Source: Methylophilus sp. 42
GTDB lineage: Bacteria > Pseudomonadota > Gammaproteobacteria > Burkholderiales > Methylophilaceae
NCBI RefSeq assembly: GCF_000384155.1
Contig: NZ_KB913031.1
Location: 2,410,960 to 2,474,959 of the forward strand
Length of the DNA stretch: 64,000 bases
Direction: 5' to 3'
Shown: positions 6,981 to 37,755 of the stretch, one piece after another
Layout of the letters: each line of letters begins with the position of its first letter
How positions within the stretch are numbered: position 1 is the stretch's first letter
Position numbers and translations under genes: made by a program
The notes under the pieces: model-generated
What the model saw: the letters and a program-made list of their open reading frames with translations, nothing else
What the model was told of the DNA's origin: nothing
Databases searched by the model: none

Positions 6981-7718
6981 TTATCTAAAAGGTAGAAAAG
7001 GCGCCGTGGTAATACTTTGGGTCAGGCGCGAAATAAAACGTTGCGACTTTTCGGCCAGTGTCAGCGCCAATAAATCGGTCCGGGCGATCAGTTTGCTGAA
7101 TTCCCGCTCAAAACTGAGATTCTGCACTTCGCCCGGCAAACTATTGGTGAGTAGCAATAACTCGCCTTGTGTATTTTTGGCATTGGTCAGCTTCCATACC
7201 GCAATCTCAATATTCCTGGCCGCATTATACAAACTCTGCGGCTCTATGCTATCGGTGAGGAAAAAAGCCGATTTATTGCCATGGGCACGGAACAGCATGG
7301 ACTGTATGCCAACCACCAAGGCTAACACGCGGTCTCCGCTGTATTGTGCATTCAGGGCCAGTTTAATCGCAGCGGTATCTTGCGCACCACCCAAGGCATC
7401 GAACTGCCAGTGATGCGTGGCGACCTGCTCAAACACATAGCTGGCAATTTGTTCTGGCGTCCCCAGACCTGATTTTTGCGCCTCAGCCGGGTTGCGCTTG
7501 TACATTTTGAGCATGAGCAAGCGCAAGGTACTGACGTTTTCGCTATATTCAATATCGGCCAGGCGATCGAGGTCTGTTTTGACCAGTTGATGAAAGGTAT
7601 TGCGGTCTTGCCGCACAGGCACCGGCCGCCCATTAGGCGAATCGACATAACCGCCATCCGGTGTCGTGCTGCATCCGGCCAGCAGTAAGATCATCACACG
7701 CCAGCCGGAAAAACTCAT
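6981..7718 (-). CDS. Predicted lipoprotein of unknown function
   Basis: 245 residues starting with a short hydrophobic leader and lipobox (MILLLAGC). The start overlaps the phoR stop as ATGA, so translation is likely coupled. The body is mainly helical with no motif I recognise. Its coupling to the phosphate sensor kinase suggests an envelope role in the same transcript but proves no shared function. Confidence 0.8.
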   Translation of the reverse strand: MSFSGWRVMILLLAGCSTTPDGGYVDSPNGRPVPVRQDRNTFHQLVKTDLDRLADIEYSENVSTLRLLMLKMYKRNPAEAQKSGLGTPEQIASYVFEQVATHHWQFDALGGAQDTAAIKLALNAQYSGDRVLALVVGIQSMLFRAHGNKSAFFLTDSIEPQSLYNAARNIEIAVWKLTNAKNTQGELLLLTNSLPGEVQNLSFEREFSKLIARTDLLALTLAEKSQRFISRLTQSITTAPFLPFR

Positions 7719-9013
7719 GCAGGCAATACCCGCTGTGCCGGAAAGACAATCTGGAAACGGCTGCCCTGGCCAGGCTCACTTTCAATCTGCAAACTGGCCT
7801 GATGGTGATGCAAAATATGTTTGACGATGGACAACCCTAAGCCGGTGCCGCCAGTGTCACGACTGCGGCCGCTATCGACACGGTAAAAACGTTCCGTCAG
7901 GCGCGGCAATTGATGCGGCTCAATGCCTATGCCGGTATCCTGCACGCTGAATACGGCATCCTCGCCGCGCATCTGCCAGTAGATATCAATCTTGCCTTGC
8001 TCAGGGGTATAGCGCACGGCATTACTGGTCAGGTTACCCAAGGCGCTCAACAATTCGTTATAACTGCCGCGCAGATTAACTTTCGTCTCCATATGCAGCG
8101 TCACGGTATGCTGGCCCTGGCTCAATGCCTGTGCATCTTTCTGCAACTGCTGCAGCAAGGCAGGCATGGCAATATCGGTTTCATCTTTGAGCGTGACGTT
8201 ATTTTCCAAACGCGACAAGGTCAGCAAGTCTTCAATAATGCGCCGCATGCGCGTTGTTTGCGACTGCATCATGTCGAAATAAGGTTGGATATCCGGCGAG
8301 ACTTCACCTTGCATATCACTAATGGTTTCGAGAAAACCGCCGATGACTGTCAGTGGCGTACGCAACTCATGCGATACATTGGCAATAAAATCGCGGCGCA
8401 TGACCTCGGTTTTTTCAATGGCAGATACATCACGGCAGATCAGCAAGCGCTGCTTGCTGGCAAAGGGAATAATCTGTAATTCCAGCGTCACATCCGGGCT
8501 GCGCCAGGATTTGAGTTTAAGCGGCTCACTGTAATCTTCGGCCTGCAAATACGTCACAAACTCGGCTTGCCGCAACAAGTAATAAATCGGCTGGTTTTCA
8601 TCATGATGCCGCTTTAAACCCAGTCGCTGAATCGCAGGCTCGTTAAACCATTCAATTTCGTTACGGTTATTCAGTACCACCACCCCATCTGGCAACGCAC
8701 TGGTGGCATGACGCAGGCGCTCAAGTGTACTGCTCAGCTGACTTTGGCTGCGCGAATGGCGGCGCATTTCATGATACAGATTAGCAAAGATGTCCTCCCA
8801 GATGCCTTTGCCGTTTGGCATGAAGTTAAGGCTGGGTTTGAGCGCCCACTGGTACAGGCGGTGCGTCCAGTATAAATGTCCGGCAAGATAGGCCAGCACA
8901 CCTGCCATAAACAATAGCCAGGCAGTGTCTGCACTGGTGAACCAGCCCACCATCAGGCAACAGAACGCCCAAAACAGCAGACTCCAGAACGCTTTCCAAC
9001 GAATATCTTGCAC
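7715..9013 (-). CDS. phoR: Phosphate-regulon sensor histidine kinase PhoR
   Basis: A 432-residue membrane kinase with PhoR architecture. Two N-terminal hydrophobic segments (residues about 8-50) are followed by a PAS domain (ALPDGVVVLNNRNEIEWFNE), the HisKA box with the phosphorylated His (IANVSHELRTPLTVIGGFLE) and an HATPase domain (N box near NLTSNAVRYTP, G boxes DTGIGI and GGTGLGLSIV). PhoR normally phosphorylates PhoB under phosphate limitation. No phoB is next to it in this window, which is unusual. A PHO-box promoter is seen at 30656. Confidence 0.9.
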   Translation of the reverse strand: MQDIRWKAFWSLLFWAFCCLMVGWFTSADTAWLLFMAGVLAYLAGHLYWTHRLYQWALKPSLNFMPNGKGIWEDIFANLYHEMRRHSRSQSQLSSTLERLRHATSALPDGVVVLNNRNEIEWFNEPAIQRLGLKRHHDENQPIYYLLRQAEFVTYLQAEDYSEPLKLKSWRSPDVTLELQIIPFASKQRLLICRDVSAIEKTEVMRRDFIANVSHELRTPLTVIGGFLETISDMQGEVSPDIQPYFDMMQSQTTRMRRIIEDLLTLSRLENNVTLKDETDIAMPALLQQLQKDAQALSQGQHTVTLHMETKVNLRGSYNELLSALGNLTSNAVRYTPEQGKIDIYWQMRGEDAVFSVQDTGIGIEPHQLPRLTERFYRVDSGRSRDTGGTGLGLSIVKHILHHHQASLQIESEPGQGSRFQIVFPAQRVLPA

Positions 9014-9110
9014 AAGCTATTCTCAACACATCAATGTCGGCGATTATACGACACATCTGTCCACAGGCAATGACAGGATGATGACAGCCGCCCAGGAGCA
9101 AATAGACCGC

Positions 9111-13126: not shown

Positions 13127-13374
13127 CAAAGCTTTTTGAAAAACAATCTTTTTAAAGTAGAACCAAGCACGATTAACATGACAGATATTGCCTGACTTTA
13201 AAATCAGGCTGCCTAACATAACGCAACTCTGGTCGCGGCATCAACTGATTTAACAAAAAATAGCGATTCTTTCATCGCCATGCCTGTCAATTTCAGGCAG
13301 TCATCTTGCATCAGGATTGTAAATGCAATATTTCATCCCCTGCGCTATTTGTAACCAAGTTGTAACCACCCCAC

Positions 13375-13403
13375 TTCATGCCGGATACGGCTTGGAGTAT
13401 AAT
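13375..13403 (+). promoter_or_regulatory. Possible ompR promoter
   Basis: A perfect TATAAT at 13398-13403 lies about 110 bases before the ompR ATG, with a weak -35 (TTCATG) 17 bases upstream. The remaining intergenic stretch 13127-13374 shows nothing I can identify. The leader contains a short hairpin (GGCCTCTTGTGTGAGGTC). Confidence 0.4.
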
Positions 13404-13511
13404 GATAAAGATAAGTTTTATGGCTCAGCCATTTTGGCCTCTTGTGTGAGGTCATCCCGATGGCGGCCCGGCGCGTTAACAAAACGCACGCTTCTGTGTA
13501 AAAAGGTACGT

Positions 13512-14237
13512 ATGGCAGAACAGTTAAAAAAAATATTGATGGTTGATGATGATTTGCGTATGCGCGAACTTTTACAGCGCTACCTCACTGAACAAGGATT
13601 CAATATCAAATCCGTTTCCGATGGCAAAGAGCTGGACAAAGCCATGTCTGCCGAGAGCTTTGACCTGCTGATTCTCGACCTGATGTTGCCAGGTGAAGAT
13701 GGCCTGGCCATCTGCCGCCGACTGCGTGGTGCCAACCACATGACACCGATTATCATGCTGACTGCACGCGGTGACGAAGTCGACCGCATTGTTGGCCTGG
13801 AAATGGGCGCTGATGACTACCTGCCGAAACCGTTTAATCCACGTGAGTTGCTGGCCAGGATCAACGCCGTGTTGCGTCGTCACGAAATCACACCCAAACA
13901 AGCGGTTGAAGAAAAAAGTGCCGCGTTTCAGTTTGGTGAGTTTGTCTTTGACACCAACACACGCAGCCTGACCAAAAATGGCGTGCCGATTACTATTACC
14001 AGTGGCGAGTTCACCTTGTTAAAGGTGTTTACCGAACATCCGCGCCAGCCATTGTCACGTGACCGCCTGATGCAACTGGCCCGTGGCCGCGAGCTGGATG
14101 TGTTTGACCGCAGCATAGATGTGCAAGTGTCACGCCTGCGCCGCATTATCGAACCGGATCCAGCGCATCCACGCTACCTGCAAACCATGTGGGGCTTTGG
14201 CTATGTGTTTATTCCAGATGGCGAAGCGCCGCAATAA
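13512..14237 (+). CDS. ompR: Response regulator OmpR
   Basis: 241 residues: a receiver domain with the acidic pocket (MVDDDLRMREL), phospho-acceptor Asp in LLILDLMLPGEDG, Thr in MLTARGD and Lys in LPKPFNPRELLAR, then a winged-helix DNA-binding domain (DRSIDVQVSRLRRIIE, TMWGFGYVF). The start at 13512 follows AAAAGGT; the frame is open upstream but lacks family sequence there. It precedes envZ by 24 bases, a classic two-component operon. Confidence 0.94.
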   Translation: MAEQLKKILMVDDDLRMRELLQRYLTEQGFNIKSVSDGKELDKAMSAESFDLLILDLMLPGEDGLAICRRLRGANHMTPIIMLTARGDEVDRIVGLEMGADDYLPKPFNPRELLARINAVLRRHEITPKQAVEEKSAAFQFGEFVFDTNTRSLTKNGVPITITSGEFTLLKVFTEHPRQPLSRDRLMQLARGRELDVFDRSIDVQVSRLRRIIEPDPAHPRYLQTMWGFGYVFIPDGEAPQ

Positions 14238-30118: not shown

Positions 30119-30577
30119 ATGACAACACGCGTATTAAAATGGATGACTGTCGCAGTGATCGCAGCGGTATTAGCGGCGTGCGCCAGTTCAAACTCTGGCA
30201 ATGTGTATTCACGAGACGAAGCGCGTAAAGCACAAACAGTCAAAACCGGTGTGGTGGAAAGTGTACGCTCCGTGAAACTGGAAGGCACCAAGTCACCTGT
30301 CGGGACCATTGCCGGTGGCGCCATTGGCGGTATCGCGGGTAGCTCGGTCGGTGGCGGCAAAGGCAGTGCGATTGCTGCCGTGATTGGCGCAGTCGCCGGT
30401 GGCCTGGCGGGCTCTGCCGCAGAAGAAGTGGCAACGCGTAAAAATGCTTACGAAATCACAGTCAAGCTGGATGGCGGCGGTTTGGTCGCCATTGTGCAAG
30501 AGGCTGACGAGCAATTTAACGCGGGTGAGCGTGTGCGTATTGTTGAAAGTGGCGGCACCTCCCGCGTTTCTCACTAA
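30119..30577 (+). CDS. Glycine-zipper outer-membrane lipoprotein (SlyB/Pcp-like)
   Basis: 152 residues. The leader ends in a lipobox (LAAC), and the middle is a glycine zipper (GTIAGGAIGGIAGSSVGGGK and GAVAGGLAGSAAEE). The C-terminal part EITVKLDGGGLVAIVQEADE and VRIVESGGTSRVSH matches SlyB/Pcp lipoproteins, which span or line the outer membrane. A strong terminator follows. Confidence 0.9.
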   Translation: MTTRVLKWMTVAVIAAVLAACASSNSGNVYSRDEARKAQTVKTGVVESVRSVKLEGTKSPVGTIAGGAIGGIAGSSVGGGKGSAIAAVIGAVAGGLAGSAAEEVATRKNAYEITVKLDGGGLVAIVQEADEQFNAGERVRIVESGGTSRVSH

Positions 30578-30597
30578 GCGCGGAAATAGCTTCATTT

Positions 30598-30630
30598 AAA
30601 AGAGCGACCATGGGTCGCTCTTTTTTATTT
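30598..30630 (+). terminator. Rho-independent terminator
   Basis: AGAGCGACC-ATG-GGTCGCTCT followed by TTTTTATTT. It ends the glycine-zipper lipoprotein gene. Confidence 0.93.
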
Positions 30631-30655
30631 AGCGCGAGCAGTTTAGTCACTGGCG

Positions 30656-30711
30656 GCGTCACACAACTGTCACACCAACGTCACCAATCGTTCATGTGAC
30701 ACTCCTAATAT
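30656..30711 (+). promoter_or_regulatory. PHO box promoter of olsBA
   Basis: Four 7-base units at exact 11-base spacing: GCGTCAC (30656), CTGTCAC (30667), ACGTCAC (30678) and CGTTCAT (30689). The PhoB consensus is CTGTCAT repeated every 11 bases. The last unit ends ten bases before a -10, TAATAT (30706-30711), the spacing normal for PhoB-activated promoters that lack a -35. An extra GTCAC lies at 30646. Confidence 0.85.
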
Positions 30712-30741
30712 CTCGCTAAACCTCAACCAAGGAGTTGCGTG

Positions 30742-31530
30742 ATGTTAGAACGCCATCTGCAAGAACACGGCACATACCAGGCAGAAATTCAATCGCCAGC
30801 CGACACCACCCGTAAGCCAGCCTCAACCCTGAGCGTGGCACTGGCCACCAGCGCAGAAGAGATCATGGAAGCACAACGCCTGCGCTACCAGGTGTTTGCT
30901 GAAGAAATGGGCGCACAAATCAAAGGCCAGCAAGGGCTGGATGTCGATGGCTTTGATGCATTTTGTGATCATTTACTGGTGCGCGACGATGCGACCCAGC
31001 AAGTCGTTGGCACTTACCGTATATTGAACCCGATGCAAGCCATGCTGGCAGGTGGTTACTACTCCGCTGGCGAGTTTGATTTAAGTCGTTTGGCCCCGCT
31101 GGCGGACCGCACGGTAGAAGTCGGCCGCGCCTGCGTACATGCGGACTATCGTAGCGGCGGCACCATCACTATGCTGTGGGCAGGCCTGGCCAAATACATG
31201 ATGGCGCGCCAGTATGAGTACATGATCGGTTGCGCCAGCATCTCCATGCACGACGGTGGCCATACCGCGGCGTCCCTGTTTAACAACTTGCGTGACGACT
31301 ATTTGTCGCCTGCAGAATACCGAGTGTTCCCGCACAATCCATTACCGATTGATGCCCTGGATCAATCCCTGACCGTCGCTTGCCCGCCACTGGTCAAAGG
31401 CTACTTGCGACTGGGCGCCTATATTTGCGGCGAACCAGCCTGGGACCCTGCTTTTAATACGGCAGATATGCTGGTATTGTTACCCCTGTCTCGAATGAAT
31501 CCCAGATATGCTGCGCATTTCTTGAAATAA
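30742..31530 (+). CDS. olsB: L-ornithine N-acyltransferase (OlsB-like)
   Basis: 262-residue GNAT-type enzyme that transfers a 3-hydroxyacyl group from acyl-carrier protein to ornithine, the first step of ornithine-lipid synthesis. Family segments: EAQRLRYQVFAEEMGAQI, DHLLVRDDATQQVVGTYRIL, EVGRACVHADYRSGGTI and MIGCASISMHDGG. The ATG at 30742 follows AAGGAG; a GTG three bases earlier is also in frame. olsA follows and a PHO box precedes. Confidence 0.9.
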   Translation: MLERHLQEHGTYQAEIQSPADTTRKPASTLSVALATSAEEIMEAQRLRYQVFAEEMGAQIKGQQGLDVDGFDAFCDHLLVRDDATQQVVGTYRILNPMQAMLAGGYYSAGEFDLSRLAPLADRTVEVGRACVHADYRSGGTITMLWAGLAKYMMARQYEYMIGCASISMHDGGHTAASLFNNLRDDYLSPAEYRVFPHNPLPIDALDQSLTVACPPLVKGYLRLGAYICGEPAWDPAFNTADMLVLLPLSRMNPRYAAHFLK

Positions 31531-31546
31531 CTTGCCACAAACCTCA

Positions 31547-32281
31547 ATGATCGTTCGCGGGTGGCGTATCACCCGCATCACACTGCATGTCCTGACAGGT
31601 GTCACCTTAGCCGCCATTGTGTTGCCAGTGTGCAACCGCTGGATGCGGCTCGGCCTGATTCAATGGTGGTGCAAGCGCCTGTTGCACTGCTTTAACCTGC
31701 GCGTGACTACCAGCGGCGAATTACCCGATATCCGCACCCACGGCGTATTGTTTGTGGCCAACCATATTTCCTGGTCAGATATTCATGCCATCAACAGCAT
31801 CATCCCGGTGCACTTTGTCGCCAAGCTGGAGATCAGGGACTGGCCAGTCTTTGGTTACCTGGTCAGAAAGTCCGGCACCATTTTTATCAACCGTACGCGC
31901 AACCGCGATGCGGCGCGTGTGGTGAATATTTGCAGCCATGCGCTCAAATTGAATGACAATCTATGCGTGTTTCCGGAAGGGACTACCACCGAGGGCCTGA
32001 GTGTACTGCCGTTTAAAAGCAGCCTGATTCAGGCGGCTATTGAAGCCAACACCAAAATCATCCCGGTAGCTATTCATTACCCACTGCCTGATGGCCAACC
32101 GAACCTGGACGTAGCTTACGCTGGCGACACCTCGATCATCGAGTCGATGAACGCCTACCTGAAAATGCAGCAACCGACGGTGCACTTGCATTTTGGTACG
32201 CCAATTGCAGCCAGCGGACAATCACGACAACAGCTGGCTCAACAAGCACACGCGCAGATTACCGCAACATTATTTGGTTAA
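31547..32281 (+). CDS. olsA: Lyso-ornithine lipid O-acyltransferase (PlsC family)
   Basis: 244 residues, PlsC-type acyltransferase. The catalytic HX4D motif is NHISWSDIHA, followed by the acceptor-binding GTIFINR, FPEGTTTEG and IIPVAIHYP motifs. An N-terminal transmembrane helix is present. With OlsB it should complete ornithine-lipid synthesis at the inner membrane. ATG 31547 is chosen over a TTG at 31532. Confidence 0.9.
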   Translation: MIVRGWRITRITLHVLTGVTLAAIVLPVCNRWMRLGLIQWWCKRLLHCFNLRVTTSGELPDIRTHGVLFVANHISWSDIHAINSIIPVHFVAKLEIRDWPVFGYLVRKSGTIFINRTRNRDAARVVNICSHALKLNDNLCVFPEGTTTEGLSVLPFKSSLIQAAIEANTKIIPVAIHYPLPDGQPNLDVAYAGDTSIIESMNAYLKMQQPTVHLHFGTPIAASGQSRQQLAQQAHAQITATLFG

Positions 32282-32294
32282 ATGGCCGGCTGAC

Positions 32295-33662
32295 CTAGCG
32301 CAGCCATTGCACCAGCATCCCCACCACTGCAGACGCAGCAATCACGGCAATCACATTCAGTTTAAAACGCGCCAGCGCCAACCAGGCCACGACGGCCAGG
32401 CCGATGGCTAGCCAGTCTATACCAGGGAACCATGTGCTCTGCAAAAACACATGGTAAGCAAAAAACAGGGCCAGATTTAAAATCACGCCGACCACGGCAG
32501 CGGTAATGGCACTCAGTGGTGCCGTGAGGCGTACATTGTCACGTGTATTTTCAATCAGCGGCGCACCGCTAAAAATAAATACAAAACTGGGCAAAAAGGT
32601 GAAAAAAGTCACCACCGTCGCCGCCAAAAAACCCGCCAGCAATGGCCCATCTGCTGCCAGTGCCTGGTTGAGCCAACCACCAACAAAACCGACAAAGGTT
32701 ACCACCATAATCAATGGGCCGGGCGTGGTTTCGCCCAGGGCAAGACCATCCATCATCTGCGCCGGGCTGAGCCAGTGGTAATGATCCACGGCGCCCTGAT
32801 AGACATAAGGCAAGACGGCATAGGCACCGCCAAAAGTCAGCAAGGCCGCTTTGCTGAAAAACCAGCCCATTTGCGTCAACGCCCCCTGCCAGCCGAAGTG
32901 CCACCACAAGCCAGCCATCACCAGCAGCCAGAGTACCGCCCCCGTGACTGCAATGCGCACCATGCCCAGCCAGCTAAAACGTGCATGTGCCGGTGTGGGC
33001 GTGTCATCATCGATCAGGGCACGGCCAAAATGATGCGTGGCTGCACCATGGCCGCCCACGGTAAAGAGTTTGGGAGCCAGATGCCCACCGATAAAACCCA
33101 GGCTTGCCGCGGTCAGCACGATCAAAGGAAACGGCAATTTGAACAGGAAAATCGCCACAAAGGCCAAGGCAGAAATCGCCCACATGACGCGGTTTTTTAA
33201 CGCGCGCGTGCCAATGCGGTAAGCCGCAAACAATACAATCGCTACCACCGCCGGTTTAATGCCGTATAAAGCACCCGCCACCGTCGGCACGTGACCATAA
33301 GCCATATAGACCCAGGCCAGTAACACCAGCATAAAAAACGAAGGCAAGACAAACAGCACGCCGGCGATCACGCCGCCCCAGGTGCGATGCATGAGCCAGC
33401 CAATATAGGTGGCCAATTGCTGCGCCTCCGGGCCAGGCAAGACCATGCAATAATTGAGCGCATGTAAAAAACGTTTTTCAGATATCCAGCGTTTTTGCTC
33501 GACCAGGTCATGATGCATGATGGCAATTTGCCCGGCCGGGCCGCCAAAACTGATCAGGCCGAGTTTGAGCCAATACCAGAAAGCCTGCCTGAGCGACACT
33601 GGTGCAGGTGATGTGTGTATGTCAGTGGAGGAAGTCATATCAGAAGAATGATGTGCGTGCAT
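32295..33662 (-). CDS. chrA: Chromate transporter, two-domain ChrA
   Basis: 455 residues with about 10-12 hydrophobic helices and two homologous halves. The first half has the CHR signature FGGPAGQIAIMH and the LPGPEAQQLATYIGWL motif; the second has FGGAYAVLPYVYQGAV and GETTPGPLIMVVTFVGF. ChrA exports chromate using proton or sulfate gradients. No chrB regulator is next to it. Confidence 0.94.
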   Translation of the reverse strand: MHAHHSSDMTSSTDIHTSPAPVSLRQAFWYWLKLGLISFGGPAGQIAIMHHDLVEQKRWISEKRFLHALNYCMVLPGPEAQQLATYIGWLMHRTWGGVIAGVLFVLPSFFMLVLLAWVYMAYGHVPTVAGALYGIKPAVVAIVLFAAYRIGTRALKNRVMWAISALAFVAIFLFKLPFPLIVLTAASLGFIGGHLAPKLFTVGGHGAATHHFGRALIDDDTPTPAHARFSWLGMVRIAVTGAVLWLLVMAGLWWHFGWQGALTQMGWFFSKAALLTFGGAYAVLPYVYQGAVDHYHWLSPAQMMDGLALGETTPGPLIMVVTFVGFVGGWLNQALAADGPLLAGFLAATVVTFFTFLPSFVFIFSGAPLIENTRDNVRLTAPLSAITAAVVGVILNLALFFAYHVFLQSTWFPGIDWLAIGLAVVAWLALARFKLNVIAVIAASAVVGMLVQWLR

Positions 33663-37659: not shown

Positions 37660-37755
37660 GTGTTTACCCTCTCCTCAAAATTCCAGAGAGCATAGTCACC
37701 CAACATGACAAATCCTTGACGCTGGCATGTCAGAAACATGGCAACGGACTACAGA

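Follow-up and report, generated by a model that had tools for sequence, protein, structure and literature searches.

A probable PhoB-activated promoter before OlsB/OlsA-like aminolipid genes in Methylophilus sp. 42 and other Methylophilaceae

Described systems and the OlsB/OlsA-like genes of Methylophilus sp. 42

Control of olsB by the phosphate regulator PhoB is already known from other bacteria, and the olsBA site described here is a further example of it, not a new type of system. In Acinetobacter baumannii, a Pho box is reported to precede olsB, as it does here, and the aminolipids formed under phosphate limitation are reported to need PhoR (PMC11828411). According to the passages of that article on olsA, however, this gene has no Pho box and does not respond to phosphate, whereas olsB and olsA adjoin behind one promoter in the locus studied here, with four repeat units rather than the two of the consensus (PMC11828411). 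Within Burkholderia s.l., Pho boxes were predicted before olsB with a position matrix in 21 of 43 genomes and, with a refined matrix, in all 43 (data not shown there), and ornithine-lipid replacement at low phosphate is stated for P. xenovorans (also data not shown there) (PMC7814305). Further cases of phosphate control of olsB or OlsF lipids through PhoB/PhoR are cited in these works (PMC11828411, PMC7814305). The gene with the predicted Pho box is thus the same; the scope of that study is Burkholderia s.l., and that of the present one is the Methylophilaceae and their four-unit arrays (PMC7814305). The work on the phosphate-stress lipid of Sinorhizobium meliloti (Geiger 1999, cited in PMC7814305 and PMC11828411) resembles our case in the PhoB dependence of phosphorus-free lipids and differs from it in the lipid, which, from the title of the 1999 paper, is the betaine lipid DGTS.

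Another form of lipid renovation uses PlcP and Agt, a phospholipase and a diacylglycerol glycosyltransferase with Pho boxes (PMC4796936, PMC8528852). Here too, a phospholipase C gene and an Agt-like gene lie beside pst, but a search for a relative of the PlcP-like phosphoesterase of small-genome Methylophilaceae gave no better match than an LpxH-like frame, and the genes near pst instead encode a Zn-phospholipase C (PF00882) and a calcineurin-like phosphoesterase of another sort. Published work assigns PlcP transcripts to Methylotenera (PMC9239053), and the Methylophilaceae as a family therefore do not lack PlcP. A literature search of limited depth found no published report of phosphate-controlled ornithine lipids in this family, and term searches found no mention of ornithine or phoB in a paper each on a transcriptome, on genome streamlining and on Methylophilus comparative genomics in this family.

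We analysed a stretch of 64,000 nucleotides from Methylophilus sp. 42 (contig NZ_KB913031.1), hereafter referred to as the window, whose first letter is position 1 (Table 1). The OlsB-like and OlsA-like frames adjoin, with 1 base between the longest frames, and the next gene (32295-33662) is convergent to them. Translation of olsB may start at GTG 30739 or at ATG 30742, the latter being better placed for the AAGGAG sequence, and that of olsA at TTG 31532 or ATG 31547. The preliminary description of this DNA had named the pair as the ornithine-lipid genes olsB-olsA. The OlsB and OlsA models are indeed the best-scoring NCBIfam families for both genes, well above OlsF and GlsB/GlsA, but the scores fall below the curated cut-offs (OlsB 191 of 320 and 179 of 350; OlsA 135 of 300 and 132 of 300). 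We therefore refer to the genes as OlsB/OlsA-like, and we infer that ornithine is the likely amino acid acylated by the OlsB-like enzyme. A search for a solved structure for the OlsB-like protein gave only LasI (E 0.0013).

Table 1. Features of the window around the olsBA promoter and phoR; Pho-box scores are matches at the 14 scored positions of the E. coli Pho box CTGTCATNNNNCTGTCAT (quoted in PMC8528852 and PMC11828411)
Feature	Position	Strand	Basis or remark
phoR, phosphate sensor kinase	7715..9013	-	TIGR02966, 428 bits (cut-off 334)
Pho box CTGTCATCATCCTGTCAT	9070..9087	-	upstream of phoR, 14/14
Terminator-like hairpin	30598..30624	+	after glycine-zipper protein gene, upstream of olsBA promoter
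Pho-box unit 1, GCGTCAC	30656..30662	+	sequence; TCA core invariant in window and L010-L019
Pho-box unit 2, CTGTCAC	30667..30673	+	sequence; TCA core invariant in window and L010-L019
Pho-box unit 3, ACGTCAC	30678..30684	+	sequence; TCA core invariant in window and L010-L019
Pho-box unit 4, CGTTCAT	30689..30695	+	sequence; approximately at the position expected for a -35 hexamer
-10 hexamer, TAATAT	30706..30711	+	sequence; 10 bases past unit 4
olsB-like N-acyltransferase gene	30739..31530	+	PF13444; best NCBIfam OlsB, 191 bits (cut-off 320)
olsA-like O-acyltransferase gene	31532..32281	+	PF01553; best NCBIfam OlsA, 135 bits (cut-off 300)

The scores under the cut-offs leave some room for a variant that is compatible with our preferred explanation, in which the operon is controlled by PhoB but has another product, the OlsB-like enzyme acylating lysine, glutamine or glycine. 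The olsB route of Acinetobacter, which is reported to yield 'OL and LL' aminolipids (PMC11828411), the second of which we read as lysine lipid, also speaks for it. However, given the top scores of the OlsB and OlsA models, well clear of the alternatives, we consider this variant rather unlikely.

The promoter array and its probable reader

The array before olsB, which is read directly from the sequence, consists of four 7-base direct repeats with an 11-base period and 4-base spacers. AAGGAG and the two possible olsB start codons follow downstream of the TAATAT hexamer, and the hairpin separates the olsBA promoter from the gene upstream. No TTGACA-type promoter was found by a consensus scan of 30560-30800. 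The claims that olsB-olsA is preceded by four 7-base units at exact 11-base intervals, and that the last ends ten bases before a TAATAT -10, were both confirmed, and the layout of a PhoB-activated promoter recognised in them is seen in the repeats, their period, the distance from the last unit to the -10 and the lack of a proper -35. A TAnnnT sequence stands at an equal distance from the array in L010-L019, the ten closest named loci of relatives, and in most of a further 70 loci (L020-L089), where the register is the one that the matrix selects. In several of the latter, L069-L071 and L075-L079 among them, the matrix can be read one unit either way, and a training-free pattern was therefore chosen for the headline count of arrays given below. 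A fifth unit is present in Methylotenera mobilis 13 (L021).

The site looks like the promoter of an apparent two-gene unit, and we consider it highly probable that it is a PhoB-activated promoter of an OlsB/OlsA-like two-gene operon. According to the mechanism that we propose, PhoR would phosphorylate PhoB when phosphate is scarce, and PhoB would bind the four in-phase units head to tail. With unit 4 in the place of the -35, it would recruit RNA polymerase to the TAATAT -10 and activate the predicted co-transcription of both genes. An amino acid, most likely ornithine, would then be N-acylated by the OlsB-like enzyme, and addition of another acyl chain by the OlsA-like one would yield a phosphorus-free aminolipid to replace phospholipid.

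The preliminary description had placed PhoR at 7715 and found phoB absent from the window, which is correct: PhoB (TIGR02154, 355 bits, cut-off 296) is encoded elsewhere in the genome (G000:C1:2592932-2593606, minus strand), about 150 kb from olsB and about 173 kb from phoR. The phoR gene, with its 14/14 box directly upstream, stands apart from phoB, and each of the two genes has its own box. Among 150 family genomes, 140 have a PhoB match at E 1e-75 or better, and 134 of these matches exceed the cut-off. As a separate observation, phoB lies at most 15 kb from olsB in 20 of 38 genomes with coordinates entered by hand; this is not so in the four of these genomes that belong to the window's genus.

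We built a sequence-only profile (R1) from 36 olsB arrays of L020-L089, none of them titled Methylophilus; the other 34 of these 70 loci were left out because they scored below 38 or were more than 85% identical to a kept locus. Genus was judged by record titles, and some of these arrays may come from the window's GTDB genus under other names. Up to E 10, the search of the whole 2.97 Mb genome with R1 yielded nine matches. First in rank was the phoB promoter (E 0.0014), followed by a PAP2-family phosphatase gene (0.014), the DUF47-Pit operon preceding pstSCAB (0.07) and an OprP/OprO-type porin (0.15), with the olsB site of the window only fifth (0.37). The remaining matches were a LuxR-type regulator (1.5), a dehydrogenase site (2.8), a small ORF (4.3) and a type II secretion pseudopilin gene (5.3). 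The frames beside the match at E 2.8 look, by eye, like short-chain dehydrogenases. Pho-box-like sites, two of them at 11/14, precede the LuxR-type regulator gene (L193, G000:C1:2346219), and a weak one (11/14) precedes the type II secretion pseudopilin G gene (L196, G000:C1:2356467).

The literature consensus gave scores of 14/14 for phoR, 13/14 for oprP and 12/14 for phoB, pstS and phospholipase C, and the motif is common to the phoB, phoR, pstS, DUF47-Pit operon and OprP-type porin promoters of the same genome. Since the motif trained on olsB leads to the phosphate regulon, PhoB is the most likely reader of the olsB array. The same ranking, with the phoB promoter recovered first and other phosphate genes after it, and the 14/14 Pho box of phoR weigh against binding of the array by another regulator of the OmpR/PhoB family, such as the OmpR encoded at 13323-14237, in which case osmotic or envelope stress, and not phosphate, would control the lipid genes. 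The OmpR site pattern also differs from the olsB array. We regard control by such a regulator as very improbable, although ten places in the genome, PhoB among them, match nearly the whole PhoB model, both OmpR and EnvZ are encoded within the window, and the ornithine lipids of Vibrio are reported to be induced by low salinity as well (PMC12186959).

Conservation of the array in relatives

On the match to the E. coli consensus alone, the olsB site is not beyond chance in the window. The three boxes that overlap within it match at 10, 10 and 9 of the 14 positions, and 10/14 is reached at 26 sites on the plus strand and 38 on the minus strand, 64 in total. The four-unit consensus sum is 19 at the olsB array, whereas some other places in the window reach 20-21, and other unit spacings give sums of up to 20. 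Judging the site by this consensus alone was therefore discarded, as the score fails to separate it from chance. A genome-wide scan with a strict pattern of three YGTCA units, one mismatch allowed, found five sites, and none in the reversed control. Two of the five are the olsB site and the promoter of phospholipase C near pst; a third precedes an ORF of 100 aa that has no Pfam match, a fourth is at position 37706 within the window, and the fifth is downstream of an integrase-like frame (G000:C1:1599439; L157, 7438-7466). The last has TGTCAC repeats with 11-base spacing that match the three-unit pattern exactly, and we took it as not phosphate-related, since there is no phosphate gene nearby in surroundings judged by eye only.

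The array stands out from chance because it is conserved. Of 81 regions upstream of olsB in Methylophilaceae (the window and 80 named loci, these being the best 80 among the 244 relatives found), 70 contain the pattern TCA-N8-TCA-N8-TCA-N8-T[CA]A, where mononucleotide shuffles lead one to expect 0.005, and this strict four-unit pattern is missing from the other 11. Among the window and its ten closest named loci (nine titled Methylophilus and one Methylophilaceae), the mean pairwise identity is 0.86 for the units, with TCA cores at 1.00, 0.83 for the -10, 0.73 for the spacers, 0.67 for the ten-base gap, 0.68 downstream and 0.29 for the 40 bases upstream, a flank that is at random identity. The repeat units are thus kept in relatives, a point that the preliminary description had left to be checked. 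The number of regions with a phased array and the invariant TCA cores beside a random upstream flank allow us practically to dismiss four look-alike units arisen by chance, without function, in a C/A-rich leader, even though 64 window sites score as well by consensus alone. The idea that a lipid swap under phosphate starvation is likely in this methylotroph gains support from the array kept in relatives and from the motif before phosphate genes, both of which point to PhoB control at the level of sequence.

An OlsB relative was found in 122 of 150 family genomes. Nine genomes of the small-genome genus g14 had an OlsB match, and in each of the eight loci fetched from this genus the array is degenerate (scores 11-15); in genus g16, six of seven olsB genes have no array directly before them. 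Array scores at five further divergent loci were 12.3 (G005), 28.3 (G011), 0.1 (G031), 8.3 (G018) and -14.8 (second olsB copy of G021). This second OlsB-like gene (L216, G021:C4:1507706-1508392) is 64% identical to the first, lies about 6 kb from it and has no array.

Four g16 loci have an 11/14 box about 0.9 kb upstream of olsB. In two of them (L247 and L248), olsB begins 14-16 bases after a calcineurin-like phosphoesterase gene, and the box lies 31-43 bases before the phosphoesterase; the box of L248 recurs in L249 and L251, again about 0.9 kb from olsB. Displaced Pho-box control of olsB in g16 is only suggestive, because each of these stretches of 8-10 kb contains one to three further 11/14 sites. 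In G074, an 11/14 site lies closer in, and in G065 the upstream DNA was covered to 500 bases.

At the level of the order, an OlsB relative was found in 54 of 80 genomes, 51 of them outside Methylophilaceae. From these 51, we fetched and examined 27 olsB upstream regions, of which 12 have a box of at least 11/14 (0.1 expected) and eight have the pattern TCA-N8-TCA-N8-T[CA]A (0.05 expected).

A possible wider set of Pho-box lipid genes

The olsBA promoter may belong to a wider set of lipid genes, which is newer but less certain than the promoter itself. We tentatively suggest a membrane-renovation regulon of Methylophilaceae, driven by PhoB and of uncommon composition, that would comprise OlsBA, a PAP2 lipid phosphatase, an Agt-like glycolipid synthase and, in the role that PlcP usually has, the PF00882 Zn-phospholipase C. 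These genes would be scattered over the window's genome, each with its own Pho box, and gathered in one island (olsB-phosphoesterase / olsA-PAP2-agt) in genome-reduced relatives. We hold this to be possible but somewhat doubtful, because only one of 30 loci has an array directed at agt and the query used for PlcP is itself only a putative PlcP.

In the window's genome, genes for the PF00882 phospholipase C and a calcineurin-like phosphoesterase are divergent from that for a GT4 glycosyltransferase, beside pst (L155, 7589-11020; G000:C1:1139589-1143020). The best match of this Agt-like glycosyltransferase is monoglucosyl-diacylglycerol synthase (155 bits, cut-off 400). The four-unit array in the spacer between phospholipase C and agt points at phospholipase C (score 20.1), and, in the 30 glycosyltransferase loci, arrays scoring at least 10 are found on the phospholipase side in nine and towards agt in one. 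The phospholipase C gene was found in 46 of 67 loci searched, many of them overlapping one another, and in none of the seven loci L247-L253. Relatives of the glycosyltransferase (E 1e-80) and of PAP2 (E 1e-20) were detected in 54 and 49 of 60 family genomes, respectively. The agt and PAP2 genes lie within 6 kb of each other in 42 of the 47 genomes with both, and the window's genome is one of the five in which they do not. In 30 of 51 genomes, the distance between agt and pstB is within 10 kb.

The PAP2 phosphatase gene of the window's genome (L189, G000:C1:1127911-1128545) has a Pho-box-like array that is stronger in many relatives: arrays scoring at least 10 precede the gene in 20 of 30 loci, and the score in the window's own genome is 6.7. 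As background, four of 267,610 positions score at least 10 in stretches of this genome, a rate to be read with the differing base composition of the genomes in mind. By consensus, 11/14 is reached in seven of the 30 PAP2 loci (about 0.3 expected).

Among 38 genomes with hand-entered coordinates, seven, all of g14 or g16, have olsB and agt at a distance of within 6 kb, as have none of the 31 others. Two small-genome relatives, G013 (L252) and G015 (L247), have olsB, a calcineurin-like phosphoesterase gene, olsA, PAP2 and agt in one island, the order in L252 being olsB and the phosphoesterase gene, then the divergent olsA, PAP2 and agt. The island of L247 also contains a UDP-glucose 6-dehydrogenase-like gene and a second glycosyltransferase gene, which could serve glucuronosyl lipid synthesis. 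The phosphoesterases of L252 and L247 (PF00149, calcineurin-like) are 50% identical, and we provisionally call them PlcP-like. A query of this type found only an LpxH-like frame in the window's genome at E 0.001 (30% identity, E 5e-5), and this phosphoesterase has just a short motif region in common with the phosphoesterase near pst in that genome.

Among the methylotrophs of fresh water, Methylophilaceae are common. The conserved, probably PhoB-read switch before their aminolipid genes predicts an exchange of phospholipids for phosphorus-free lipids at low phosphate in this family, which would alter both its phosphorus demand and the lipids that it leaves in sediments. If the wider gene set proves true, lipid renovation in bacteria may also proceed through phospholipases other than PlcP.
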